Shown: one piece after another, positions 14,910 through 30,229 of the stretch
Layout: the number at the start of each line of letters is the position of its first letter
Numbering within the stretch: the first letter of the stretch is position 1
Source of the DNA: Ectocarpus siliculosus
Taxonomy: Eukaryota > Sar > Phaeophyceae > Ectocarpales > Ectocarpaceae
Reading direction: 5' to 3'
Assembly: GCA_000310025.1 (NCBI GenBank)
Contig: FN648785.1
Span: forward strand, 79,178 to 109,406
DNA length: 30,229 nt
Translations under genes and position numbers: made by a program
The notes under the pieces: generated by a model
What the model was told of the DNA's origin: nothing
Seen by the model: the letters and a program-made list of their open reading frames with translations, nothing else
The model's database searches: none

Positions 14910-15225
14910 CGGCAATGCTATTTGCTCCACCGGTGGAGTAAGTTCTCATTTGCTCCGCCAGCCAGAACTCCACCCCACGGAGCTCCAATCGACCTCAAAC
15001 CAATTGCATCGTGAAGGTATGGACTACAGCTATCTGCCATGCTACTTAACAAGCTAAATCCGACCGGTGGCTGCAGAGATATACTGACAAAGGGGTTCCG
15101 CAGCATGTCATGTCAGGAAGCAGTAATCGTCTCGAACCTCCGTCCACACCGCTCCAATTGACCTCAAATATTTTGCATCGTGTCAGCACGGTCCATGCCG
15201 TTCTTCCAAGCTATCGGACACTCAC

Positions 15226-15232
15226 ATCCGAT
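15226..15232. repeat. SINE target-site duplication ATCCGAT, left copy
   Basis: ATCCGAT precedes the SINE head and is repeated after its A-rich tail at 15624-15630. Confidence 0.85.
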
Positions 15233-15623
15233 CGCCCCGGTGGTCTAGTTGGTATCCTCGAAACCTTCTAGAGGTCAGGTCAGGGGTTCGAATCCCGGCG
15301 CAAGCGAGTTTTCTTGCAAAGTGAGTTTTTCTCTCGCTTCCGCTTCTGGCCTAGTGGATAGCGCCAGTTCGTGTGTACACAAAGGGAAGAGAGTGCTGAA
15401 CTCTTCTCGCATTAAATCGAAGGCAAAGTACCGCAGGAGGGGAGGGTAGAGAGGGGCTCTTCTGTGTGACCACGGGTTGGAGTAAACGGCACTAGTGCTG
15501 TAAGAAGGTGTCCATTGGCGAGTTGTCATTTTTTGATAAGGAAAAAAGAAAAAGACAGCCCCAACGAAGAACCGTAAGAAATGGCCTGAGCGCTGATTTG
15601 AAGTGAAGACAAACAAAAAAAAT
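15233..15623 (+). mobile_element. tRNA-derived SINE (391 bp)
   Basis: The head CGCCCCGGTGGTCTAGTTGG carries an RNA polymerase III A box (TGGTCTAGTTGG, 15241-15252) and a perfect B box (GGTTCGAATCC, 15285-15295), at tRNA-like spacing. A second A-box-like motif (TGGCCTAGTGGA, 15347-15358) suggests a dimeric head. The 3' end is A-rich (AAACAAAAAAAAT). The 7-bp duplication ATCCGAT flanks it exactly. The opposite arm of the foldback (near 18355) lacks the whole segment, which confirms insertion. It has no protein and would need LINE machinery to move; which LINE is not shown. A mature tRNA is unlikely because T-stem and anticodon-stem pairing are imperfect and no acceptor stem closes. Confidence 0.88.
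15241..15295 (+). promoter_or_regulatory. Internal RNA polymerase III promoter (A and B boxes) of the SINE
   Basis: A box TGGTCTAGTTGG at 15241 and B box GGTTCGAATCC at 15285, matching the tRNA consensus boxes. Confidence 0.75.
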
Positions 15624-15630
15624 ATCCGAT
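15624..15630. repeat. SINE target-site duplication ATCCGAT, right copy
   Basis: Follows the A-rich tail directly and matches 15226-15232. Confidence 0.85.
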
Positions 15631-15789
15631 ATCTTCCCGCAGACATACGCTCAACCGAGGGGGTTCCGCAGCATCCAGGGGGGGGGGTAGCTGGCAATAG
15701 TCCCGCTATACCTCCCGTCACATAGCTGAACCGCGCCTAACTCGGCCCGCATCGTGTTGTCACGGCTCACAGCTATCATTCAAGCCATC

Positions 15790-16741
15790 CTCCACCCCAA
15801 TCGGACCAGTGGGTGCAGAGAAACACCCCCACGCGGGGGCTCAGGGACTCAAGGGCCGGTGGAGCAGATAGGCTGTTGGATGTACTCACAGCATCAACAG
15901 ATTATTGCGAGCAAGAATTTCCCGAGCAGATGGAGCGGGGAGTTTGGGGGTTCAATGGTTGCTATGGATTAGATTTGGTGGTACCAACTTTATCACATAT
16001 TGCAGGTTTGAGGGTATGGGTGTCTACAACGGAATTTGTGTGCGTGGCTTGTGGTTCCTCACTTCCTTTTTTCTGTGTATAATCAAGTCCGTTTTCCGGT
16101 TCTCACGCCAACCCCGGCTTCCACGCCCATACTCCGGCTATCACGCCAACCCGGCTTCCACGCCTTCAGGACTCCCACGTCCCTACATATACCTTTACAT
16201 CAGGGCTTCCACGCCACCCGGCTTCCACGCCACAACTATATTATACACGAGCTTCCACGCTCCACCACGTAGAAGGGCTTTCACGCCCGCGGATAGTTTC
16301 TTCATTTTGACCGTTGGCAGTACCCAGCTGCTGGCACCTTTTGTTTCCCACTACGGGACCCCGCGCCGAGGCACCCACGCACAAAGCTACTCAACACGCT
16401 AGCGTCATACAAGCCACCGGACACCCCAATGGGGCCAGTGGGTGCAGGGAAACGCCCACCCATGGGGACGCAGAGACTCAAGGGCCGGTGGAGCAGATAA
16501 GTTTAACTGCTCCACCAGGCCAAACTCTATCTTCCAGGTGCTGTTTGTCTTACGAAGACTTTAATTGTGTTGGCCCGGCCCACAACTATCATACAAGCCA
16601 TCGGACACCCCAATCGGACCTGTGGGTGCAGAGAAACGCCAAGCCCCGGGGGCTCAGCGGCTTAAGGGCCGGTGGAGCTTAACTGCCCCACCAGGCCAAA
16701 CTCTATCTACACCGGGCGCTGATCGTCGTACGAAGACTGTG
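15790..16741 (+). repeat. 184-bp tandem units, left arm (three, one interrupted)
   Basis: The landmark CCAGTGGGTGCAG (CCTGTGG in the third) starts at 15806, 16435 and 16619. The last two are 184 bp apart. The first interval equals 106 bp plus the 523-bp insertion. Each unit includes GGGCCGGTGGAGC and GCCAAACTCTATCT. Confidence 0.8.
15874..16396. mobile_element. Solo-LTR-like insertion (523 bp) in the left arm
   Basis: This segment is absent from the right arm. It begins TGTTGGATG and ends CTACTCAACA, so its ends form the short inverted repeat TGTTG...CAACA expected of an LTR. Its last 278 bp (16119-16396) recur inverted at 29952-30229, diverging at the same terminal TGTTG. No matching duplication flanks it (TAGGC on the left, CGCTA on the right), and about 78 bp of the adjoining 184-bp unit are missing. 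A deletion or recombination therefore followed insertion. It contains an array of GGCTTCCACGCC-like 12-mers. Confidence 0.6.
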
Positions 16742-17001
16742 ACAGGATAGGGGCACCCCCTGGATATGGGAAGTTTTTTCAAACGGGCTCCCCTCCGGGC
16801 TAACGGGCACTCCTCCCCACCCACCCCGACTAACGGTCACCCCCCCAATAACGCCCCCCTCCTGGTGGTTTGGGGCACTCCCCCTCAGCTATAACGGCAC
16901 TCTCCGTCAACAACGGCCACCCCATCTCCATTGTCGGTACTCCTCTCTGCTCACGGACACCTCTTGGTGCCGTGTTCGGACGGTGCAGTGCTCTGTATGT
17001 A
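16742..17001. repeat. C-rich degenerate short repeats, left of the foldback centre
   Basis: Irregular repeats of about 25-35 bp with an ACGG-CACTCC core (CTAACGGGCACTCC, CTAACGGTCACCC, ATAACGGCACTCTCC, CAACGGCCACCCC). They occur only on the left side of the centre, so this part breaks the symmetry of the two arms. Confidence 0.6.
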
Positions 17002-17422
17002 GTATACACTGTGTTTCCTGGACACTTAGAATGTTAAATCTGATCACATACACTGTGTTTGTTGATCAGATACGCTAAACACTGTATTCCCTGAGCAGAT
17101 TCACTGTATTCCCTCATCAGATACACCGTATTCCCTCGCTCGTTTAACTGTATTCCATAATCAAATACATTGTATTCCCTGGTCAGGATCACTGTATTTC
17201 CTTATCCGATACACAGTGCTCGTCGTACTTTTTACTGTATTATTATTGTGTTCCCTCATCAGATACACCGTATTGCCTCGTTCGTTTCACTGTATTCCCT
17301 CATCAAATACACTGTATTCCCTGGTCACGATCCCCGTATTCCCTCTTCAAGTACACTATACCGTATTTCTTGTATTTTTCACTGCATTCCCTAATCATAT
17401 TCAATGTATTCCTCATCAGATG
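17002..17422 (+). repeat. 22-bp minisatellite, forward block
   Basis: Degenerate head-to-tail copies of CACTGTATTCCCTCATCAGATA, with variants such as CTGAGCAGATT and TCATCAAATA. No coding frame is maintained. Confidence 0.85.
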
Positions 17423-17429
17423 TGCACGC

Positions 17430-17740
17430 CGTGGAATGCAGTGAATTTGATTAAGGAATACAGTGTATCTGATGAGGGAGCATAATGAATCTGCTCTGGG
17501 AATACAGTTTGTCCTGACGAGGAAATACCGTGTAACTGCCCTGGGAATACAGCGTATCTGATCAGAGAATACAGTGTATATCTGACAAGGGAATACGGCG
17601 ATTCTGATCAGGGAATGAAGTGAATCTGATAAGGGAAACATTGTATGTGATGAGGGAGTCCAGTGAATCTGCTCAGGGAATACAGTGTATCTGACGAGGG
17701 AATACAGTGAATGTGACTAAAGGATACAGTAAATGTGAGG
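17430..17740 (-). repeat. 22-bp minisatellite, inverted block
   Basis: Copies of TATCTGATGAGGGAATACAGTG, the reverse complement of the forward block. The orientation changes around GTGCACGCCGTGG (17421-17433), which is the fold point of the element. Confidence 0.85.
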
Positions 17741-17754
17741 AGGAAATGGCTCAG

Positions 17755-18245
17755 AGGCCACATATTCTGCTCCACCGGCCTTTGGGCGATGAGTCCCCAT
17801 GGGTGGGTGTTTCTCTGCACCCACTGGTTCGATCGGGGTGTCCGGTGGCTTGTATGATAGTTGTGAGCCGGGGCAACACAATACAAGTCTTCGTAAGGCA
17901 AACAGCGCCCGGTAGATAGAGTTTGGCCTGGTGGAGCAATTAAGCTTATCTGCTCCACTGGCCCTTGCCTCACTGAACCCGCGTGGGTGGGTTTTTCCCT
18001 GCACCCACTGGTTCGATCGGGGTGTCCGATGGCTTGTATGATAGCTGTGAGCCGGGGCAACACAAGGCAGGTCTTTGTAAGACAAACAGCGCCCGGTTGA
18101 TAGACTTTGGCCTGGTGGAGCAGTTAAGCCTATCTGCTCCACCGGCCCCTGAGTCCCTGAGCCCCCGCGTGGGGGTGTTTCTCTGCGCCCACTGGTCCGA
18201 TTGGGGTGGAGGATGGCTTGAATGATAGCCGTGAGCCGTGCTAAC
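17755..18245 (-). repeat. 184-bp tandem units, right arm (three)
   Basis: The landmark CCACTGG starts at 17821, 18005 and 18189, exactly 184 bp apart each time. Units are inverted relative to the left arm. All three are uninterrupted here. Confidence 0.88.
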
Positions 18246-18682
18246 ACGATGCGGGCCGAGTTAGGCATGGTTCAGCTGTGTGACGGGAGGTATAGCGGGA
18301 GTATTGCCAGTCACCCCCCCCTAGATGCTTCGGAACCCCCTCGGTTGAGCATATGTCTGCGGAAAGATATTGGATGTGAGTGTCCGATAGCTTGGAAGAA
18401 CGGCATGGACCGTGCAGACACGACGCAAAAGATTTGAGGTCAATTGGAGCGGTGTGGACGGAGGTTCGAGACGATTACTGCTTCCTGACATGCTGCGGGA
18501 CCCCCTTTTTCAGTATATCTCTGCAGCCACGGGTCAGATTTAGCTTGTTAGTAGCATTGCAGATAGCTGCAGTCCATACCTACACGATGCAATTGGTTTG
18601 AGATCGATTCGAGCTCTGTGGGAGTTCTGCCTGGTGGAGCAAATAAGAACTTACTCCACCGGTGGAGCAAATAGCATTGCCG
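18128..18682 (-). repeat. Right arm, outer unique part
   Basis: Reverse complement of the left outer arm. At about 18355 it runs straight through the site where the left arm carries the SINE (ATATTGGATGTGAGTG), so it preserves the pre-insertion sequence. Confidence 0.85.
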
Positions 18683-19729: not shown

Positions 19730-20394
19730 CCTGACTTTCGAACAGCCGGCGCCCGCGGGTGCTTGCTGTTGTGGCGAGCCGCTCGTGATGCCCCCCGATC
19801 CCCCCAGTGACCTCGCTGACAGCACATGCACAGCTCGGGTAACCCGGGAATCAGCAGACACCGCATCGAGCGCCAATAACATGCGCACACGCGTCAAGGT
19901 CAATCCCACAGCAAAGGCCGCACCTACCTGTCATCCTTGTGGAGCACTTTCGCCTCCCATCAAACGCCCTAAACCAGCCGTGTTATGCTACGTACAACTG
20001 CTGTGGCGCCGCTCGTGTGCAGATCGACTGTGCCGACATCAGTCTGATCGTAGCCGCTTGCGAAAGCTGCAACCATACTTCCAGTAGTAACCTTCGCACG
20101 GTTTTTGCACTCAGGAAACATACACCTTTCGTAGCTGAGTACAGTTCGTGCGTAGACCTTACTCCTCGGGGCTGGGAACAGTGTGGGCAAGGTGGAAGGA
20201 GCAGGGCGCTTACCTGGATCACGTGTCTCTCCCATGATGGTATCCACTCTTACGGTATCTGGCAAACAATGTAGCAGCTGCTTGCTGACGACCGTCGTGC
20301 CGAAGTCGACCGTCATTTTCTCACCAACGGCCAACACGGTAATCACCCGTTCGCTCATCATGTTGACATGCATAGTGAGGCATGTGATAGACAT
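19730..20394 (-). CDS. Possible multi-exon host gene, first exons only
   Basis: An ATG at 20394 opens MSITCLTMHVNMMSERV... and reaches GATCCAG|GTAAGC, a good splice donor, at about 20213. Two further donor-like sites lie downstream on the same strand: GACAG|GTAGGT near 19929 and GTCAG|GTTAGT near 19730. Between them a frame reads VTRAVHVLSARSLGG. The 141-aa frame that ignores the donor runs on to 19969. No family is recognised and acceptors were not pinned down. The donors are seen directly; the gene is inference. Confidence 0.25.
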
Positions 20395-20438
20395 GTTGTT
20401 AGCGGGTTGACGGGTGATATATGCACTTTAACAGGCTT

Positions 20439-20443
20439 TATTA
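20439..20443. repeat. Possible target-site duplication TATTA, left copy
   Basis: TATTA before TAGGGTATCCAC; the same five bases follow GTGGATTCCCTC at 21378-21382. Low-complexity A/T bases make chance possible. Confidence 0.4.
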
Positions 20444-21377
20444 TAGGGTATCCACTATGGATTGACGCGGAATTTTGACCTTTGAGGATTGACGCCAACA
20501 TAAAGTGACGGTTGAGGGTTTTGACGGGAAAAAAATCGCACCGCGTGTGCCCGTTGACACGTGAGAGGTGAAAAAAAAAAAATGGTGGAGGTAGAGTTCA
20601 AGGTTGGTTCGGGCTGCCACCCAGGGTCGACATTCCGAAGCGAAGACTCACACCCCCAGGCTCCCAGGAGAATAGGTGTACCCCTTCGCCTCATCCCGCC
20701 GACCTTCCCTCCTTTGCCGCGGCGACTTTTCCCAGGCGTCAAACTGCGACTTCCCAGGCGTCAAACTGCCGTTCGTTGCTGATGAGTAAGGCAGCTGCTC
20801 GCTGCACTGCTGCTGCTGTGTATATACCGATGTCACTGCGGCAGCAGAGCACCGAACCCCGTGAGGGGGCGGGCGAAATGCACCTACTGACTGGCAAAGC
20901 CCGTGCACCCTCCCTTACTCCTCTCCATGTGCTCCCTTCGAGGGCGAGACTCCCCCAATCACTCCCCTGCCTATGCCCGTTTTTGCTGCTGAAAGCCCGT
21001 GCGCAATCGCGACGGCGCATCTACCGAACGCGCGCGCCGAACACGCGCGTCTGGCCACTTGGCCGCCGTGAGAACTGCCGAGACGCGTGGGTGCAGGACC
21101 GCTAGGAGCAATCAGTATAGGCATGGCCAATGTGTTCGCTGCTGACCGCGCACAGCAGACCGCAGCAGAGCAAGCGTGTGTGAGCCACAGTCTGGCGATG
21201 TTTGAAGCGTCAATCTTTTCGCGTCGGTTTAAGTTTGGGTGAAATTTAATTTTGACGCTTCCTCACAAAAATTTCGCCGTCAGAGTTTGCCCCCAAAAAA
21301 GCGGCGCAACCTCTTCACGTCAAAACTTCCTGAAATGTCAATCTTTCACGTCATTTCAACAACACGTGGATTCCCTC
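20444..21377. mobile_element. Candidate non-autonomous DNA transposon with TTGACG-rich ends
   Basis: The left end TAGGGTATCCAC and the right end, read inward as GAGGGAATCCAC, match at 10 of 12 bases, with TATTA on both outer sides. Behind each end is a cluster of TTGACG/TGACG motifs. On the left they are near 20462, 20488, 20504 and 20522. On the right they are near 21211, 21252, 21284, 21319 and 21352, mostly in inverted orientation. Two 20-bp copies around CAGGCGTCAAACTGC lie at 20734-20768. There is no transposase. Subterminal motif arrays are usual transposase-binding sites. The superfamily is not identified, and the short imperfect ends keep this tentative. Confidence 0.42.
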
Positions 21378-21382
21378 TATTA

Positions 21383-21859
21383 ACTTTCATCCACGTTGGG
21401 GGTGTTTAATAAACACCGGTGGTTGTTGACAACGTTCGTGAGAACGTGTCGCGAAGGGACAAGTTGAAGTTTTCCTCTTCTTCGTAGATGCGGCATATCC
21501 GCCGCCTCTTCGATCACTCTAGAGGGCAAAAAGGGAAGTGTTCGATACTTCGATTCCTGAATATAGCCCCCAGACCCCTAGCGCTGTAACCATCGAACAG
21601 TCACGGCCCATTATAGTATTTTGTGTAGATTCTGCGCGCAGCCGCCATAACATCCCCCCAGCACTACGCGTATCAAGCGAAGATGCTAACGGAATGCCGG
21701 CTAGACGCCCAGAATCAAACACCTCCGAGCTGCGCTCGACCTTCCAAAGCTGCTCTTGATTCCATCCAGCTGTTCTTGATATTATCTTTAATTTTTATCC
21801 AGCTGCTCTTGAAAGGGTCCTTAACATCACTTGAGGCGTGACACCAAGCTCGTAGACCC
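21383..21859. other. Unassigned; possibly 3' non-coding or LTR sequence of the gypsy element
   Basis: Lies just 3' of the gypsy pol stop on the minus strand. A 17-bp palindrome GGTGTTTAATAAACACC sits at 21401-21417. Three copies of a CAGCTGCTCTTGA-like motif occur at about 21748-21812. Read on the minus strand, TGTCACGCCTC at about 21842 could be an LTR start, but no partner LTR is in the window. No coding sequence is seen. Confidence 0.3.
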
Positions 21860-22275
21860 TTATTGAGAAGATGACGCCTTGTAAAGGTCGGCTTTCGTCT
21901 TTCCTCTATTTATCTCGCGTCGACTAAGCTCCTCCCAATCTCCATCCTGATATCGTACTTTCCAATACGGTTCCCTTAAGTCATAAAACACTCCCGTCTG
22001 CTCACTAACTTGCCCTCCCCCATCAGTGAACGACTGTCTTACCTTGGTACCCACCGGAAAATCCTTAAGCGCTTGTTCACGAGAGGCTGCATCTTGGTCT
22101 TCTTTGCTCGGATATTCAGGAGGTCTAGGTCGACACGTGTCATCATGATATTCTTCCCAGAGTGCGTGAAATACATCTAACTGAAGAGAGGTAAAGCTAT
22201 TGTAAGCCTCTTCCTCATTCATCCACTCTGACTCACGACCGTCCTGATACCGGCCACGATATTCCCAACACCAAA
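21860..22275 (-). pseudogene. Gypsy pol C-terminal domain (3' half after the insertion)
   Basis: The frame enters from the insertion point as CWEYRGRYQDGRESEWMNEE. It ends with a compact domain (PVGTKVRQSF, then PYWKVRYQDGDWEELSRREI) and a stop at 21860. Gypsy integrases of this kind often end in a small SH3/Tudor- or chromo-like fold that helps target integration, and the V-R-Y-x-D-G-D-W-E-E-L pattern fits such a fold. An ATG inside at 22222 is not a real start. It was continuous with 26811-26887 and upstream before the other element inserted. Confidence 0.65.
22271..22275. repeat. Target-site duplication CCAAA, left copy (gag-only element)
   Basis: CCAAA directly before the LTR start at 22276; repeated at 26811-26815 directly after the other LTR. 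Confidence 0.9.
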
Positions 22276-22516
22276 TGTTTGGGGTGTCGGCGCGTGTACT
22301 ATGTTATCACGCGCGCGGGCTCTTGTCGAGAGCGTGCTGCACAAAGGAGTGACTCAAGTTCCTAGATTATTAGAGAGTTTAACGAGTGACAGACGTGAGC
22401 AAGAAGAGGCAAAGCCTGCTGCACCAAGTCTGTCTATCATACCCATATCTATCTCATCTGCGTAACCCCCTCGGAGATCTCGGATAATTGTATCCTGCCG
22501 TGTACACACACAAACA
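22276..22516 (-). repeat. 3' LTR of the gag-only element (241 bp)
   Basis: Starts TGTTTGGGGT and ends CACACAAACA on the plus strand. Identical in length to 26570-26810, offset 4294, with three substitutions (at about 22313, 22337 and 22364). Confidence 0.92.
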
Positions 22517-22528
22517 GCCCCCCTACTC
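22517..22528 (-). other. Polypurine tract of the gag-only element
   Basis: Minus-strand GAGTAGGGGGGC directly before the 3' LTR. Confidence 0.65.
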
Positions 22529-23125
22529 GGTACGAGATACGATCTACGAGATCCTCCGTACATAACGCCAGGTAAAACGGCAACAAATCTAAAAACCATT
22601 CATCTTTCGTATCGACAAATAAATCATCTCAACTCCCGGATCTATCGAATATTCAAGTTTCAGGTTACTACTCCTCCTACGACTATGGAACTTCACTAAG
22701 AGTCTTAACAAGCACCCCTCTCGGGAAAATGTCGTCACCACATTCTCAAGTAGTCAAACACAAAGATTTATCCTTGGAAGATTACTCAGCAAAGATCAAC
22801 ATTACATCAGAGCCACGTCATAAAGACTCTGGACGGACAACTCTGGCAAAACGCGTCAACAAATACCTCGAACAAAACCCTCGCACAAAACTGTGTTTCA
22901 ACTCATTGACCAATTTGAACTAAGCTTCGGAAGCACATAGGCCTCAACCATGTCTTACCAAAATATGTCAAATCCTTCCTCCAATACATCGTTCAGAACA
23001 GTCATCAATACCTAATACATGCGGCACAATTAGACAAACGTAAAAAACCCGGCGTTCAAAGACGCCAGAGGAAACTTTCGCCGATTATTATGCCGTTTCT
23101 CAAACATCCAGACATGGACTTCTTG
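22529..23125. other. Non-coding 3' region of the gag-only element
   Basis: A/T-richer than the rest. Short plus-strand frames (22729-22923 and an ATG-less one from about 22924 to 23208) look faintly protein-like but have no motif and run against the element's direction. No gene is called. Confidence 0.4.
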
Positions 23126-23250
23126 ACAGCCCCCCTGCTGCATCATCGCCCAAAACATAAAAGTTTAACAGCCCCCCTGCTGTATCATCTCCCAAAACAC
23201 AAACGCTAACAGCCCCCCTGCTGCAACAACTCTCGGATCCAAACAACGAG
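23126..23250 (-). repeat. Three 41-42-bp tandem repeats with polypurine-tract-like cores
   Basis: Units begin ACAGCCCCCCTGCTG at 23126, 23168 and 23209. On the element's own strand each reads CAGCAGGGGGGCTGT, very like the polypurine tract and LTR start of the element (GTAGGGGGGCTGT). Confidence 0.75.
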
Positions 23251-23260
23251 AAATCAAACG

Positions 23261-23462
23261 AATATCATGAAGTTACCTCCGAACTCCGCGGGAAAAACGC
23301 GGAATCGCGAATAAACAAGAAATAAATGAATTTCTTATCCTAGCAACGAGGAATCAGACAAGTATCATGAAGTTGCCTCAAACTCCGCAGGTAAACGCGG
23401 AATCGCAAACAAACAAGAATTGAGGGCTTCTCCTCATTTTCCGCAGGTAAAACGCGGAAAAC
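23261..23462. repeat. Two or three copies of an approximately 104-bp repeat with GC-rich hairpins
   Basis: AATATCATGAAGTTACCTCCG (about 23261) recurs as AGTATCATGAAGTTGCCTC about 104 bp later. Each is followed by a CCGC-(7-8)-CGCGG inverted repeat (CCGCGGGAAAAACGCGG, CCGCAGGTAAACGCGG). A third CCGCAGGTAAAACGCGG occurs at about 23441. Confidence 0.6.
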
Positions 23463-23851
23463 GTGAACAAAATGAACAATCAAACCCGAACGTCCGCTAG
23501 AACTCTGCTTGTACTGCGGCGAAGATCATGGCATCTCAGCATCACATTCATCCCCCCCCGTGATTTTCGACAGCAGTGCTAGCAGTGACCCAACAACATC
23601 AACTGCACCATTCGGCGCGGTGAAGTCCTAGACTATGCACACCATATCCTTGACAAATGAAAAACACGTGTACCACAGACCATAAACACCACTTTCGTTC
23701 GTGCGCATCGCAACACAGCAGCCCACGTCGACGCAGTTCTCAAACTCATATCTTTCAACAAACAAAATCGACCCAGAAAATAGAAAGCCAAATGAACATA
23801 ATTCTCACGAACGTGCCTGAATCGCGCGTAGACTCATGGTGCAACCACCGG
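23463..23851. other. No recognisable gene; downstream of gag
   Basis: Sequence between the gag stop and the 3' repeat blocks. A plus-strand stretch ELCLYCGEDHG at about 23500-23535 vaguely resembles a zinc knuckle but is not supported. Confidence 0.35.
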
Positions 23852-26014
23852 TCATCTCGCACGGTAGCTCCCGAACACGTAGCCTCTCAATTCATGCCGC
23901 ACCCTTCCAGCCACGATCGAATGCCCAGCCCTGGCATTACCCCCCATCGTCCCGCACCACGCAGATACCATTGTACACGGTCGGATGGGCGCCGGGATGC
24001 CCCGCACCCGCACCCGCACCCGTAGACAACGCCACGAAGCTGCCGTCGCCGCTGCCGCCGTTGCTGTTGCCGCCTTCGCCGCCATTGTCCAACCAACAGC
24101 CATCCTCATCGCACGCGTCCTCCGCTTCTTGCGCTGCTCGTGCCGGTGTAGCTGCCGATGTGGGCACTGCGATCGCCCCCCCAGTTGATACGGCGGGGGT
24201 ATCTGGCCGCAGGTCGACGAAACCTCCAGTGCCACCGTTCCTGCAGCTGACGGCGTCCCGGCCGTTCCCCCCATCGACGAGTGGGGGAAAACACCAATAC
24301 CTGTCGTCGTCCCCACCGTTGTTTCCGCTGCTGAAGCCACGCCTGCTGACGACACAAGTGGTGGGCCCGGCTGCATATGCAGTGCCGGTTTCTTGGCCGC
24401 CAATTCCCCCCATTGCCTCCGTATGTCAGCAAGCTCTTCTTTCATGCTTTCGAGTTCATCCGTCGCCGGTGCCGCCGCCGGTGGCACCACTGATACCGTC
24501 GCTTCAACAGCAAGTGCCTGCTCCCCGGCCGTTCCCCCTGCCGCCGCCGCGGGGAAGACTCTGTTGCCGGGGGTCCCCGCTCTCGCCGCCGTTGCTGCCT
24601 CCGATGCCGCCGCTCCAGCCGCGAGTGCCTGCGCCGCGGCCGTTCCCCCCGCCACCGTAGCGGGGAAACCACCACCACCGGTCGCCGCTCCCACAGCAGT
24701 TGCTGTGCCCCATGCCACCGCTCCATCTGCAAAGGGGAGGAGCGACTCCGGCTGACGCCTGTGCCTGTGCCTCCTCCAGCGTCGTCGCTTCCGCTGCTGG
24801 TACGGCATAGTGTCGTTGCCACTCGCGTTGAGACCCTCTCCATCACCGACATGCACGTGCTGTTGCATGCGGCCGGTTGTGCAACACATGCGGCGCCGAT
24901 GACCATACTCACCGCAGGCAGTGCAGTGGCCTTCAAAGCGTCGTGGCGCATTGCAGTCGCCGAGTGAGTGTCCATGCCTCCCGCACCTCACGCACTGATG
25001 AACGGCACCCATCGGAGCGCCTGGCGGCGGAGCTGACTCCTCTTGCGGGTACACGGCGTTGCGCCCACAGTCATAGAGCCCCCCAGATCCCCACGTCGGG
25101 AAATTAGGAGGTGGGTAGTGTACAGGTGGTGGTTGTGGATGAACCCACTGTTGTTGCTGCTGCTGCTGCTGCCGCCGCCGTTGTTTCCCCTTCTGACCGA
25201 CGCCACCATGACCGCACCCCAAACCACCGACCGCCTTCGATTTGCCCAATCCCTTGATCTCGACGTTGTTAGCGTATGCCGTGCGAACAACTTTTTCCAC
25301 TTTCGCTCGGGGAATGGTGCGTTCGACATCGTACTCGGGCGAAAGCTGGCGAACAATGATGTGGACGATTTCCCGCTCGGATTTTTCAATGCCGACAGCT
25401 CGCATGATGTTGATGATGCCATCAACTCTGGCAAAGAAAAGCTTCGGGTTCTCGCCAGGGGACATCTCAACTGCCTCCAACCGTCGCACAAGCAATGTCT
25501 TCTCGGCGTCGAAAGTAGGCAAAACCCATTCGCGGATCACCCTCCACGCCTCAGGGACGCAGTCGCGAGCAGCCAACCGTTCTTCAATGTCCGTGCCGCA
25601 GGTTGCTTCCAACAGATATCCCCACGCCCGCTTGTGTGCCGTAACGAGCGCCGCACCATGAACCCGGTTCAGATATATGCAATCCAAACAGCTGATGACA
25701 GGAACATAGCCAGTGGGATAGGTGTCTTCAAGCGTCTGCTCCAAACCCTCGCTAGCCAGGAAAATCCGCAATCTCCGCAGCCAGTTCACGGCCTTCGCCG
25801 AATCTTTCGGGATTTTGGGCGGTATGCGACTGCTGCTGTAGCCGCTCAACGCACAATTTCCGTCATTCATCATGCTCACCCGTTGTGTACCGAGACCAGC
25901 TCCAGCAGCTGCCCAGGTAGACGTTCTCCCGGCAGCCATTACTCTTGCCGGTGCATCATTCTTCTCCGATAGATGCCCATATTCCCTCTCCGTCATGTCC
26001 TTCTCCCTCGCCAT
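23852..26014 (-). CDS. Gag polyprotein of the gag-only element (720 aa)
   Basis: ATG at 26014, stop at 23852. Residues about 60-255 form a Copia-type Gag body (DSAKAVNWLRRLRIFL, then PKLFFARVDGIINIMRAVG and IIVRQLSPEYDVERTI), which builds particles and binds RNA. A glutamine run follows. Two zinc knuckles of CX2CX4HX4C type lie at about 24958-25000 (CVRCGRHGHSLGDC) and 24890-24930 (CTACGEYGHRRRMC). The rest is low complexity, with diverged internal repeats around GG-TA-QALA-G (near 24257, 24525 and 24637). A short coiled-coil-like stretch (ELESMKEELADIRRQ) lies between repeats. The last 100 residues turn Arg/Ala-rich, while another frame there is Gly/Asp-rich, so a late frameshift is possible. 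There is no protease motif. Confidence 0.82.
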   Translation of the reverse strand: MAREKDMTEREYGHLSEKNDAPARVMAAGRTSTWAAAGAGLGTQRVSMMNDGNCALSGYSSSRIPPKIPKDSAKAVNWLRRLRIFLASEGLEQTLEDTYPTGYVPVISCLDCIYLNRVHGAALVTAHKRAWGYLLEATCGTDIEERLAARDCVPEAWRVIREWVLPTFDAEKTLLVRRLEAVEMSPGENPKLFFARVDGIINIMRAVGIEKSEREIVHIIVRQLSPEYDVERTIPRAKVEKVVRTAYANNVEIKGLGKSKAVGGLGCGHGGVGQKGKQRRRQQQQQQQQWVHPQPPPVHYPPPNFPTWGSGGLYDCGRNAVYPQEESAPPPGAPMGAVHQCVRCGRHGHSLGDCNAPRRFEGHCTACGEYGHRRRMCCTTGRMQQHVHVGDGEGLNASGNDTMPYQQRKRRRWRRHRHRRQPESLLPFADGAVAWGTATAVGAATGGGGFPATVAGGTAAAQALAAGAAASEAATAARAGTPGNRVFPAAAAGGTAGEQALAVEATVSVVPPAAAPATDELESMKEELADIRRQWGELAAKKPALHMQPGPPLVSSAGVASAAETTVGTTTGIGVFPHSSMGGTAGTPSAAGTVALEVSSTCGQIPPPYQLGGRSQCPHRQLHRHEQRKKRRTRAMRMAVGWTMAAKAATATAAAATAASWRCLRVRVRVRGIPAPIRPCTMVSAWCGTMGGNARAGHSIVAGRVRHELRGYVFGSYRAR

Positions 26015-26107
26015 CTCTTCTCTTCCTCCGCCAAATTACGCCGCAAAACAAAAATTATACGCGGCACAATGTGTCTCCTACTTGCCTACTGCTGTATTGT
26101 TTTGTAG
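26015..26107 (-). other. Leader just upstream of the gag start
   Basis: Non-coding leader between the 70-bp repeats and the gag ATG. Nothing specific was seen. Confidence 0.5.
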
Positions 26108-26517
26108 CTGGATCTCCTTGACGCGCGCTGGCAATAACCGCCCGGCTGCTGCTGCCCTTGTGTTCCAAATGCTTACCCTGGATCTCCTTGGCACGCGCAG
26201 GCAAAAACCGCCCTGCAGCTACTGCCCTTGTATTCCAAACCCTGTTCCCTGGATCTCCTTGACGAGCGCGAGCAAAAACCGCCCTGCTGCTGCTGTCCTT
26301 GTATTCCAAATGCTTACCCTGGATCTCCTTGGCACGCGCGGGCAAAAACCGCCCTGCAGCTGCTGCCCTTGTATTCCAAATGCTTACCCTGGATCTCCTT
26401 GGCACGCGCAGGCAAAAACCGCCCTGCAGCTACTGCCCTTGTATTCCAAACCCTGTTCCCTGGATCTCCTTGACGAGCGCAAGCAAACACCGCCCTGCTG
26501 CTGTCCTTGTATTCCGG
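26108..26517 (-). repeat. Six 70-71-bp tandem repeats in the leader of the gag-only element
   Basis: CTGGATCTCCTTG starts copies at 26108, 26178, 26249, 26319, 26389 and 26460 (the last about 58 bp). Two subtypes occur. One has GGCACGCGC after the start; the other has GACGAGCGC or GACGCGCGC, and its join from the previous copy is usually AAACCCTGTTCC rather than AAATGCTTACC. Because 70 and 71 are not multiples of three, no frame is kept, so the open frames here are not genes. Confidence 0.88.
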
Positions 26518-26569
26518 TGCCTACCTCCCGAACCTTTCCCTACCGACGTCAGCTGACTCCACGATATCG
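26518..26569 (-). other. Primer-binding-site region of the gag-only element
   Basis: Read on the minus strand, the 5' LTR is followed by CGATATCGTGGAGTCAGC. A TGG occurs only eight bases in, so a standard tRNA primer site directly at the LTR edge is not evident; a displaced site beginning TGGAGTCAGC is possible. Confidence 0.3.
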
Positions 26570-26810
26570 TGTTTGGGGTGTCGGCGCGTGTACTATGTTA
26601 TCACGCTCGCGGGCTCTTGTCGAGAGCGTGTTGCACAAAGGAGTGACTCAAGTTCCTTGATTATTAGAGAGTTTAACGAGTGACAGACGTGAGCAAGAAG
26701 AGGCAAAGCCTGCTGCACCAAGTCTGTCTATCATACCCATATCTATCTCATCTGCGTAACCCCCTCGGAGATCTCGGATAATTGTATCCTGCCGTGTACA
26801 CACACAAACA
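26570..26810 (-). repeat. 5' LTR of the gag-only element (241 bp)
   Basis: Pairs with 22276-22516. It is the 5' LTR because gag lies on the minus strand. Confidence 0.92.
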
Positions 26811-26815: not shown

Positions 26816-27815
26816 CCCGATCGTTCTTCCATAAGACCCGGCGATCTAGCAAGGTGAAGAGAGGGCAGGCAGCCACGGACACATCAGTTAAACCCAAGTC
26901 CGCGCCGCAGCATCACTTCGGATCGTAACAGGTACGCCAAAAGTCAGCATTAACTCCAACAGTTTCTTGCTCACCTCTAGCGCCTCCTTCGAAGGTAAAG
27001 GATAACCGAAAATAAATTTACTAGCTCTGTTTACAACCACCAGCAAATACCGATTTCCTGCCGCCGATACCTGATGAAGATCCTGAATGTCCATCTCCAA
27101 CCCTTCCCAAGGATTCAAAAACCTAGCGGGAAGCATGTGTACCTTCCTGCTCATGGCTCTTTTCCGTCGGCGACATCCACCAGATAGGACATACTCACGA
27201 ACATCCCGTTTTAATGTCGCCCAACTAAATTTCGCCGTGGCAAGCAAGGTAGTTCGTGCTACCCCCGGATGTCCATAAGTAGTGTGGATCAAAGACATAA
27301 CTCTCGATACTAACGAACGGGGAATAGCTAGTGTAGGTTCCGCCCCTTTAGAACAATGCCATAATGTGCCCTCATCATCAGTGATAAAATCTCCAATGGC
27401 TGTTCCGTCAGGTGATAGCTGTGACTTCAAGAAAGGATCAGCCCGTTGTTGATTCAAGATGAACGCAGAATCCTTAAGCAACCGCAGGGTCTCGCCTACC
27501 AACGAAGATTTGCATTCAACCGTATTCAGAGGAGGGGAAATCGTGGGAGACGCAGGTATCGGTTGAGACATGGGTTCCGGAAAGATTGGAGAAGATACAG
27601 GTTCTTGGGTGGTAGTCTCCATCTTCTCCTCCTCTCCTGCTGGTGAAGATTGAATAAACTTAGGCGCAGGTTGAATACTCTCGACCACTCTTGTTCTCCT
27701 AGTAGCGCTCCGGGTTACTGCAGGGGTGACTTCTAAAGCGGCCAACCCTTCGGTAATACAATCTAACGAGTTCTCAAGTTCCCGAAAGAACCCTTGCAAC
27801 TTCAAGCCCAAGAGA
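26816..27815 (-). pseudogene. Gypsy integrase, broken
   Basis: After a proline-rich linker (APKFIQSSPAGEEEK, about 27665-27540) the zinc-binding part appears (LIHTTYGHPGVART, about 27293-27250). Its second metal-binding Cys pair is degraded to GGCRRRKRA. The catalytic core follows, with the first Asp in GLEMDIQDL (about 27090) and the second in TIRSDAA (about 26915). The frame then stops at 26888, and the shifted frame continues as ADLGLTDVSV to the insertion point. The third catalytic residue (Glu, normally 35 or more residues on) is missing, so there is a loss as well as a frameshift near 26895. The integrase is inactive. Confidence 0.75.
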
Positions 27816-28680
27816 ACCTCCCTCATCAGCGGTGGAAGGGAATTGTTAGACAATATATTAGCGGCTGCTCCCCGGCTAAGAGCTCTCGGGATAACAAAAT
27901 CACGTTTCGACGTAAGAATCTGCTTAAAGTCCTCCGACTCTAACTCAACCGCTTCTTTGATATTACCAGAATCCGCTTTATTAACTTGATAATCTCCAGG
28001 CAGAGGTATCGTTCCCATTATATGACTCCTTGAGATTGCCAGGGTGGGTTCCCCAAAAGAAAAAATGTGGCGTTCTCATTTTTTCCTCTCTAAAAAGTAA
28101 GTTCCAGATTTGTTCGAGAACTCACCTAAAGAAGGAGTCGCTCCACCCGATCTCTCGACGATTTTTTTCCAAGCCCTCAGCCTTTCTCTTGATCTAGGAA
28201 ACCTACCTCTCTTAACCAATGAAATGTAAGTTCTTCTCCGTCCCGATGGAATATTTACTTGAAGAGCTCTCACATCCACTGACTCCACATAGTATGCGTG
28301 AGACGCAGTCGGGTATATTTCTTGTGTCCATGTTCTAGAAGCCATAAACGGACCTGCGCATTCAATTACTAATATCTCAGCTGTCGTCCTCAACAACGTG
28401 TCCATGATTAACCTGACTTGATTCATATCACATCCTTTTCCCACGTTGCATACAACCACCTCCGGGTGAACCTCTTGCAAAAGTTGAGTGCACAGCGGTT
28501 CTCCTGGAAATGATCGTATCAACCTAGGACGTCCATCACCTGGATTAAATCTTGCACACTCTAAGCCTCTCCAGTCTGCTTCTCTAGCAACCTTCACGTC
28601 TAGAATGCCTTCTGCGGCTAGGATATTACCTCCGCCCCCGCAGCAGAGCACGACCGCGAAAGGTTGATATTCAAAGAGGT
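27815..28680 (-). pseudogene. Cytosine-C5 DNA-methyltransferase-like domain inside the gypsy polyprotein
   Basis: Between RNase H and integrase lies a domain that follows the C5-methyltransferase motif order. Motif I, which binds the methyl donor, reads AVVLCCGGGGNILAAEGI (28660-28607). The motif IV region is HPEVVVCNVGKGCDMN, where Cys (codon 28432-28430) takes the place of the catalytic Cys but the usual PCQ is replaced. Motif VI is ILVIECAG with the conserved Glu (28363). Motif VIII is PSGRRRTYISLV (about 28250-28220). Motif IX-like is EPTLAISRSHI (28051-28019). Motif X-like is AAANILSNNSLPPLM (about 27868-27824). One in-frame TGA at 28078-28076 interrupts it between VIII and IX, in the same frame. 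Such enzymes methylate cytosine. Captured methyltransferases are known in a few retrotransposons of algae and dinoflagellates. The assignment is by motif reading only; activity is doubtful. Confidence 0.58.
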
Positions 28681-28929
28681 GTGGCGGTGATCGATATGAC
28701 TCATCGAGCAACTGAGCATCTATCATGTCTGTCTCCAATAACGCCGCAATAGTTGTTGTATTTGTCAACGACTGATCGTTTGCTGACCCGTCCTGATACG
28801 AGATGTCTTCCACCCCTAAATCCTTCAATAAAATGTCATCCAAAACCGGACCCTGAGGACCCCTGAACGAAAGCTTGGTAGATGAATCATCCGGAAAATG
28901 GGCATCAATATCCTTAGTAGGCATATCAA

Positions 28930-29264
28930 AACGTGGTAATCGAGACAGCGCATCAGGCAAATGATGACTCCGCCCTTCTCGCCACTGAACATCCATATCG
29001 TACTCCATCAATCGAAGAGCCCAACGATAAAGTTTTGGCGATAAGTGCTGGCTTTTGAACAACCATGTTAGTTAGTGCTGAACAGTCAGTGACTAAGGTG
29101 AATCTTCGACCCCATAAATAGTGTCGAAAATGTTCAACTGCCCATAACACATCTGCCGCTTCTCTTTCTGTTGGGGATCGACGGGAGTCCGTCCGAGTCC
29201 ACCGATGACTAGCAAAAGCGATGACGCGTTCAATACTATCTTGAATTGTGTGTGTATCGAATAC
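28930..29264 (-). pseudogene. Gypsy RNase H, 5'-truncated and frameshifted
   Basis: The minus-strand frame after a TGA at 29267-29265 reads VIAFASHRWTRTDSRRSPTE and continues with EREAADVLWAVEHFRHYLW and FTLVTDCSALTN, the RNase H typical of Ty3/gypsy. A one-base insertion at about 29063-29068 shifts the frame, and the other frame carries on with LSPKLYRWALRLMEYD and DALSRLP. Reverse transcriptase should come directly before, but no trace of it is found to the right of 29267, so the copy is truncated there. Confidence 0.8.
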
Positions 29265-29951: not shown

Positions 29952-30229
29952 TGTTGAGTAGCTTTGTGCGTGGGTGCCTCGGCGCGGGGTCCCGTAGTGG
30001 GAAACAAAAGGTGCCAGCAGCTGGGTACTGCCAACGGTCAAAATGTAGAAACTATCCGCGGGCGTGAAAGCCCTTCTACGTGGTGGAGCGTGGAAGCTCG
30101 TGTATAATATAGTTGTGGCGTGGAAGCCGGGTGGCGTGGTAGCCCTGATGTAAAGGTATATGTAGGGACGTGGGAGTCCTGAAGGCCTGGAAGCCGGGTT
30201 GGCGTGATAACCGGAGTATGGGCGTGGAA
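29952..30229 (-). repeat. Inverted second copy of the 523-bp LTR-like sequence (cut by window end)
   Basis: Reverse complement of 16119-16396 over all 278 bases available, with only a handful of substitutions. It begins TGTTGAGTAG at 29952, where similarity to the other copy stops sharply, as at an LTR edge. The right part lies outside the window. It could be a solo LTR or one LTR of an element extending either way. Confidence 0.75.

Follow-up and report, generated by a model that had tools for sequence, protein, structure and literature searches.

Does a retrotransposon of a brown alga carry a cytosine methyltransferase, and can such an enzyme still be active? The question is raised by a stretch of 30,229 nucleotides of Ectocarpus siliculosus (contig FN648785.1, positions 79,178 to 109,406), hereafter the window, whose minus strand holds the remains of a Ty3/gypsy element. 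A sequence-only reading of the window had proposed that a domain resembling DNA cytosine methyltransferases (DNMTs) is fused into the polyprotein of this element, and that its catalytic motif is altered. The explanation that we favor, with a probability of roughly 0.6, is that the window contains a dead Ty3/gypsy copy whose pol gene carries a C5-cytosine-methyltransferase-fold domain, ancestrally active and now most likely a non-catalytic module of Pol.

A methyltransferase-fold domain inside pol

On the minus strand, an open reading frame (28079-29071) begins within the end of RNase H; past a TGA codon (28076-28078), the same frame continues into the integrase (26891-28075). The domain as a whole, delimited by alignments and by the fold of its relatives, occupies 27785-28681, and its first part is 92-93% identical to that of an intact relative, locus L033. 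Motif I (AVVLCCGGGGN, 28625-28657) contains a GxGG that is common across the family, and a motif II-like segment can be read at 28544-28585. At the position of motif IV (28427-28465, PEVVVCNVGKGCD), row comparison with reference enzymes revealed that the catalytic Pro-Cys is absent. The motif VI-like sequence ILVIECAG (28352-28375) keeps the Glu and has lost the Asn in alignments, while the motif VIII-like sequence VNIPSGRRRTYISLVKRG (28205-28258), which hmmsearch aligned to EhMeth and HhaI, keeps the last Arg and has lost the Gln. Beyond the TGA lie motif IX-like (27887-27949) and motif X-like (27803-27871) segments; in a relative, the structure alignment that covers both extends to the last residue of the model. 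The motif order previously proposed for 27815-28680 is thus borne out, with borders that were right within about 30 bases. The TGA is indeed the only stop within the domain of the window, and L033 and a second locus, L036, are open throughout. The location between RNase H, which ends around 28931, and the H2C2 zinc-binding domain of the integrase (27182-27325; PF17921, E 3.8e-9) is also as proposed.

Recurrence of the domain

Genome searches were performed on an assembly of 189.5 Mb and 492 contigs, in six frames and exon by exon, a procedure that a DNMT gene with small exons could escape. The open reading frame of the window gave 113 matches, many of them to the RNase H end alone; the L036 domain gave 87 and the domain piece of the window gave 50. 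The union of the two domain searches, with matches within 3 kb merged, comprises 51 loci. In three relatives (L033, L036 and L042), the domain lies inside open pol frames of 1943, 1807 and 1649 codons, respectively. These frames contain RVT_1, RT_RNaseH, H2C2 and rve in the order reverse transcriptase (RT), RNase H, integrase, which is the pol order of Ty3/gypsy elements, and Ty3 is the best PDB match of the RT-RNase H part. No repeat pair suggestive of flanking long terminal repeats (LTRs) was found in 9.5 kb around L033 or 9.0 kb around L042, and the window copy is truncated.

The domain is divergent: identity between L033, which represents the window type (W), and the L036 (P14) and L042 (P21) types is 33-36%. 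Eight proteins from other sources (P0003-P0008, P0010 and P0011) hold at least the first part of the domain, P0003 being cut short, and P0009, whose source name is Ectocarpus sp. CCAP 1310/34, carries the second half. Because the domain is matched at 51 loci of one genome and in proteins of other sources, and because the predicted fold is clear, the motifs are more than chance resemblances, and that explanation was discarded.

A Tudor-like match (PF21743) was detected at the C-terminus of pol with E≤0.1 in seven of eight pol proteins (L033, L036, P0005, P0006, P0007, P0009 and P0011, not L042); all matches are below the cut-off, the best having an E of 9.2e-5. Sister elements that lack the methyltransferase-fold domain share the same pol C-terminus.

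Viral relatives were also considered and rejected: a scan of viral_contigs matched 33 patterns, none of them a relative by tblastn, and the BFVD matches concern the fold only. As separate observations, some matches lie inside very long open frames (10887 aa at G000:C3:3913787, 6365 aa at C489:435177 and 6330 aa at C1:2738065). In the gag/protease part (query positions ~33-758), several related copies on different contigs contain exactly one TGA each, which may reflect either stop read-through or shared decay.

Fold and class of the domain

A Pfam search of the window piece gave no PF00145 match at E≤1, a result unfavorable to the sequence-only reading. None of the 51 loci appeared in the list from the genome-wide PF00145 search. 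Among nine family members four matched, all under the 22-bit cut-off (best E, 0.0092), and P0009 scored 13.2 bits in a separate scan. This negative outcome for the window piece is, however, overridden by family-level comparison and structure, which support C5-methyltransferase ancestry. A first AlphaFold2 model, built for L033 from nine rows, had a predicted local distance difference test score of 55. For a full-length P-type domain the whole fold is predicted, and its alignment to known structures spans residues 2-302, the last residue of the model included. The prediction is a C5-cytosine-methyltransferase fold of the M.HhaI type: a Rossmann-type core, as anticipated, followed by a C-terminal target-recognition and motif IX-X part in the standard order.

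Foldseek gave its best E-values to DNMT2 chains with both the L033 and the P-type models. One might therefore imagine an RNA-directed domain of the DNMT2 kind, with the tRNA primer or the RNA of the element as its substrate or ligand, and adjacency to RNase H would suit such a role. We consider this very improbable. In VIA-align, the P-type model matches HhaI and HaeIII (22.5) and DNMT2 (21.8) within one Z unit, which amounts to a tie; the fold matches to DNMT2, HhaI, HaeIII and DNMT1 all fall within 1.5 Z. CFTxxY is a DNMT2 motif, and it was not seen on reading the family sequences; furthermore, the W type lacks the Cys that P types have in a GNAC sequence at motif IV.

Other candidates were set aside. 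An adenine (Dam-type) methyltransferase was rejected because C5 enzymes make up the matches listed for the full model. A match to Seadornavirus VP8 (PF25645, E 0.017-0.13, below cut-off) sits within the methyltransferase core and was taken as chance. A profile of full-length rows gave 233 PDB matches, of which the 60 best are RT and integrase, with no bearing on the domain.

Catalytic residues

To what extent has the catalytic machinery been altered? We compared 26 rows: the window, 17 of 20 loci (L034, L035 and L051 gave none, L051 being out of frame) and the eight outside proteins, which were additionally read by eye. The motif IV pattern was built for the altered motif, is blind to canonical GGPPC and also demanded the motif VI Glu, whose conservation was taken from alignments. 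Pro-Cys was found at motif IV in none of the 26 rows, compared with 10 of 10 reference enzymes.

The two types differ at this position. The 21 P rows have GNAC or a near variant, with Cys in 19 (Asp in L043, Tyr in L046), while W is represented by five rows, with CNVGKG in the window, CNVEKG in L033, ANLEKG in P0003, CNIAKG in P0010 and GDASRK in P0011. From the E/D that precedes motif IV to the motif VI Glu, most P rows have a spacing of 41 and L049 one of 37; it is 40 in P0011 and 33 in the window, L033 and P0010, versus 45-55 in the references. At motif VI, the Asn of ENV was found in one of 25 rows (L041) and the Glu is kept. At motif VIII, the Gln of QxRxR is replaced by Ser or Thr in all 24 rows; the last Arg is present in 23, with Lys in P0011.

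Because W members have no Cys where P types have one, and their loop is shortened, we read the W type as probably dead in catalysis, and the P type as perhaps so. The earlier suggestion of binding without catalysis is the better-supported reading for the subfamily of the window.

Descent and constraint

In an RT-RNase H tree without outgroup, a single branch (support 100/99) separates domain carriers from non-carriers. Rooting with Ty3, which has a long branch, places the domain-less clade next to the W clade, and the distribution of the domain then takes two changes. Hence, both an old gain followed by loss and a single gain with a misplaced root remain as possible histories. The tree of the domain recovers the same W, P21 and P14 groups as pol, which indicates that the domain was inherited together with pol; we infer a single acquisition. 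A recent host donor was sought and not found, the only PF00145 gene of the assembly being DNMT2-like. Codon-position ratios place constraint on the domain between that of the linker and that of RT and integrase: the domain evolves faster than either of the latter.

Absence of a methylation footprint in the genome

PF00145 matches in the assembly were confined to two exons (L001 and L002) of one intron-split gene, G000:C2:8124750-8127041, with PPCQ and TFTKGY motifs; by the latter motif, we take it to be a DNMT2. No mutational footprint of 5-methylcytosine (5mC) was detected, either in the CpG observed/expected ratio of the window (0.94) or in C/T differences among copies of the element. When the window is compared with L033, C to T changes are equally common at CpG (5/188) and elsewhere (24/804). 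In four groups of 3, 11, 4 and 8 sequences, from which L035, L044, L052 and unfetched loci were left out, the CpG excess of C/T differences did not surpass 1.6-fold (3, 55, 3 and 28 sufficiently well aligned pairs), and transversions match it in the top group. A search for SRA domains matched no control and carries no information. Negligible 5mC is reported for Ectocarpus (PMC12477816, PMC11244446). Since near and distant relatives retain the domain despite a genome devoid of methylation traces, it may have become a binding or helper part.

Weighing the alternatives

Several observations weigh against a domain of methyltransferase descent that has become a non-catalytic module. Some concern its identity: the L033 model is good in the core only, which KsgA, Erm and CbiT structures also match, and W members are weak against a reference C5 profile (E 0.089 for L033 and 0.18 for P0010, in a database of 13). 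Others concern catalysis. Profile alignment sets the GNAC Cys of P types on the catalytic Cys, whose retention in 19 of 21 rows makes activity possible there; a second Cys (KGC) lies a few residues further along in the window and in L033; and the motif VI Glu and the last motif VIII Arg are retained. Finally, there is the question of need. The sisters L023, L024, L029 and L065 have a linker alone between RNase H and integrase, and constraint on the domain is moderate. In six close pairs, its dN/dS (NG86) is 0.26-0.59, a range that overlaps those of RT (0.05-0.41), RNase H (0.17-0.53), integrase (0.06-0.45) and linker (0.39-1.13). Frameshifts affect the edges of some of the pairs, and no value could be obtained from saturated ones.

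The points on catalysis would suit a methyltransferase that is still active with an unusual motif IV, in which Ala-Cys takes the place of Pro-Cys, and that modifies the cDNA of its own element; the window type would then be a degenerate side branch. The GxGG of motif I and the whole fold predicted for a P type agree with such an enzyme, and other retrotransposon DNMTs methylate CG in yeast (PMC5890265). Nevertheless, the loss of Pro-Cys, of the ENV Asn in 24 of 25 rows and of the QxRxR Gln, together with the lack of CpG decay and the negligible 5mC of Ectocarpus, makes activity unlikely in our view.

The points on need raise another possibility, that of a passenger: a folded relic that only the continuity of the pol frame preserves and that simply keeps RNase H and integrase apart. 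Its faster evolution than RT and integrase, and a dN/dS range that overlaps that of the linker, are compatible with this view. Nearly identical copies exist among the domain-less sisters, which have therefore multiplied with a mere linker, so that the domain is not needed for transposition. The same sisters show, however, that a spacer requires no such fold, and the motifs are kept across subfamilies of 33-36% identity and across sources. A mere passenger seems slightly less credible still than an active enzyme.

In these elements, pol runs in the order protease, RT, RNase H, methyltransferase-fold domain, integrase and Tudor-like C-terminus. The data show the fold and place of the domain, its recurrence in this genome and elsewhere, its common descent with pol and the lack of a canonical catalytic Pro-Cys. 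For the non-catalytic Pol module, which we prefer, the following scenario can be envisaged. An active cytosine methyltransferase would have been captured, most simply once, before the W and P subfamilies parted. Catalysis would then have disappeared, entirely in W and possibly in P, with the nucleic-acid-binding fold left in place. The module might hold cDNA, primer or target nucleic acid, or else a chromatin partner, next to the integrase and, with the Tudor-like end, might aid complex assembly or target choice. Nucleic-acid or chromatin binding at this place, together with the Tudor-like end, would be the most economical role.

The copy in the window and its surroundings

The TGA is not the sole damage to the element. 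The end of the RT/RNase H region (28931-29246, minus strand) lies in two frames, with a frameshift near 29070: by tblastn, L033 pol is 98% identical over 29246-29070 and 91% from 29071 on. Homology to L033 stops at 29247, and RT proper is missing. The integrase core (rve, 26912-27100, minus strand; PF00665, E 7.9e-4, 20.1 bits, under its 32.6 cut-off) is shortened by a deletion of ~720 nt at 26905/26906, seen as a gap versus L033. What is left of the C-terminal end of this pol, with the sequence behind it, reappears past a nested insertion, at 21375-22275 (minus strand; 95% DNA identity to L033), and a further remainder is found at 20123-20443; the pieces are 93-95% identical in DNA to L033. 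With RT lost, a frameshift, an integrase deletion and a nested insertion, this copy is a dead fossil.

The nested insertion is a copia-like LTR element of 4.5 kb (22276-26810, minus strand) with 241-bp LTRs (22276-22516 and 26570-26810) and a 5-bp target-site duplication, CCAAA. The LTRs are 99% identical and the element is young. Its gag-type open reading frame (23852-26035; PF14223, E 2.2e-4, below cut-off) recalls the gag-only Copia families described for Ectocarpus. Elsewhere in the window, nested inverted repeats are found at 14910-18682, several blocks of 22-bp tandem units at 17061-17752, and a 278-bp inverted pair (99%) at 16119-16396 and 29952-30229, with arms 13.5 kb apart, the second of which reaches the window end.

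Relation to known elements and significance

Few lineages are known to harbor methyltransferase-bearing retrotransposons, and methylation of the element's own DNA is the role assigned to them. As described in PMC5890265, they occur in Symbiodinium and Klebsormidium, and methylation of their own cDNA was proposed. One of the closest parallels is KnitGypsy-Dnmt3 of Klebsormidium nitens, also a multicopy Gypsy element of the LTR type whose Pol includes a C5-methyltransferase domain. That domain is Dnmt3-related, its key residues are conserved, its Ka/Ks is < 0.2 and its host has 5mC; here, in a comparison by description, catalytic residues are lost, matches fall below the PF00145 cut-off and no 5mC footprint is seen. 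SymbioLINE-Dnmt and SymbioDIRS-Dnmt3 of Symbiodinium likewise bear C5-methyltransferase domains in many copies; unlike the present elements, they have long interspersed nuclear element (LINE) or DIRS backbones and conserved key residues, in a mostly CG-methylated genome (PMC5890265). The proposal of a separate lineage agrees with the divergence, with the probable host and with the lost catalytic residues, the dinoflagellate and Klebsormidium elements having been compared by description. A later survey mentions LTR Copia and DIRS elements that carry DNMT3, and early-branching brown algae that have DNMT1 (PMC12344493). Our literature search, which left most subscription papers outside, found no brown-algal retrotransposon described as carrying a C5-methyltransferase-like domain.

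Within Ectocarpus, the Gypsy-10_Ec32 lineage has a C-terminal Tudor domain (PMC12477816), comparable to the weak PTM/DIR17-Tudor match found here, and the present elements may belong to it. In its accessible text, that source mentions no C5-methyltransferase-like domain in Gypsy elements; in a DNA transposon, Sola1, it does note a domain of the N4/N6 type, and it also reports NADAR in one Gypsy lineage. NADAR domains are abundant in the genome, with 150 scored matches of 230 candidates; like the source name of P0009, this points to a probable brown-algal host close to Ectocarpus.

A cellular parallel is provided by DNMT3L. As noted above, the window subfamily appears to lack catalysis; DNMT3L is a C5-methyltransferase paralogue without catalysis that regulates active DNMT3 enzymes. 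The likeness would lie in a fold retained for a non-catalytic role; unlike DNMT3L, the present domain is part of a polyprotein, and the one DNMT gene detected in the genome around it is DNMT2-like. A more specific proposal, which we advance at somewhat less than even odds, is that an algal retrotransposon lineage, represented by two deep subfamilies and several sources, has kept a captured cytosine methyltransferase as a catalytically dead, nucleic-acid- or chromatin-binding Pol module beside a Tudor-like reader, in hosts without 5mC: a counterpart of DNMT3L that perhaps guides the integrase.

Surveys based on PF00145 overlook such domains, as illustrated by the 51 loci. In this family the fold appears to have outlived the chemistry, in a genome without a DNA methylation footprint. 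The elements thus offer a clean test case for two questions: whether a retroelement can benefit from a methyltransferase fold that does not methylate, and what an additional domain does when placed between RNase H and integrase.
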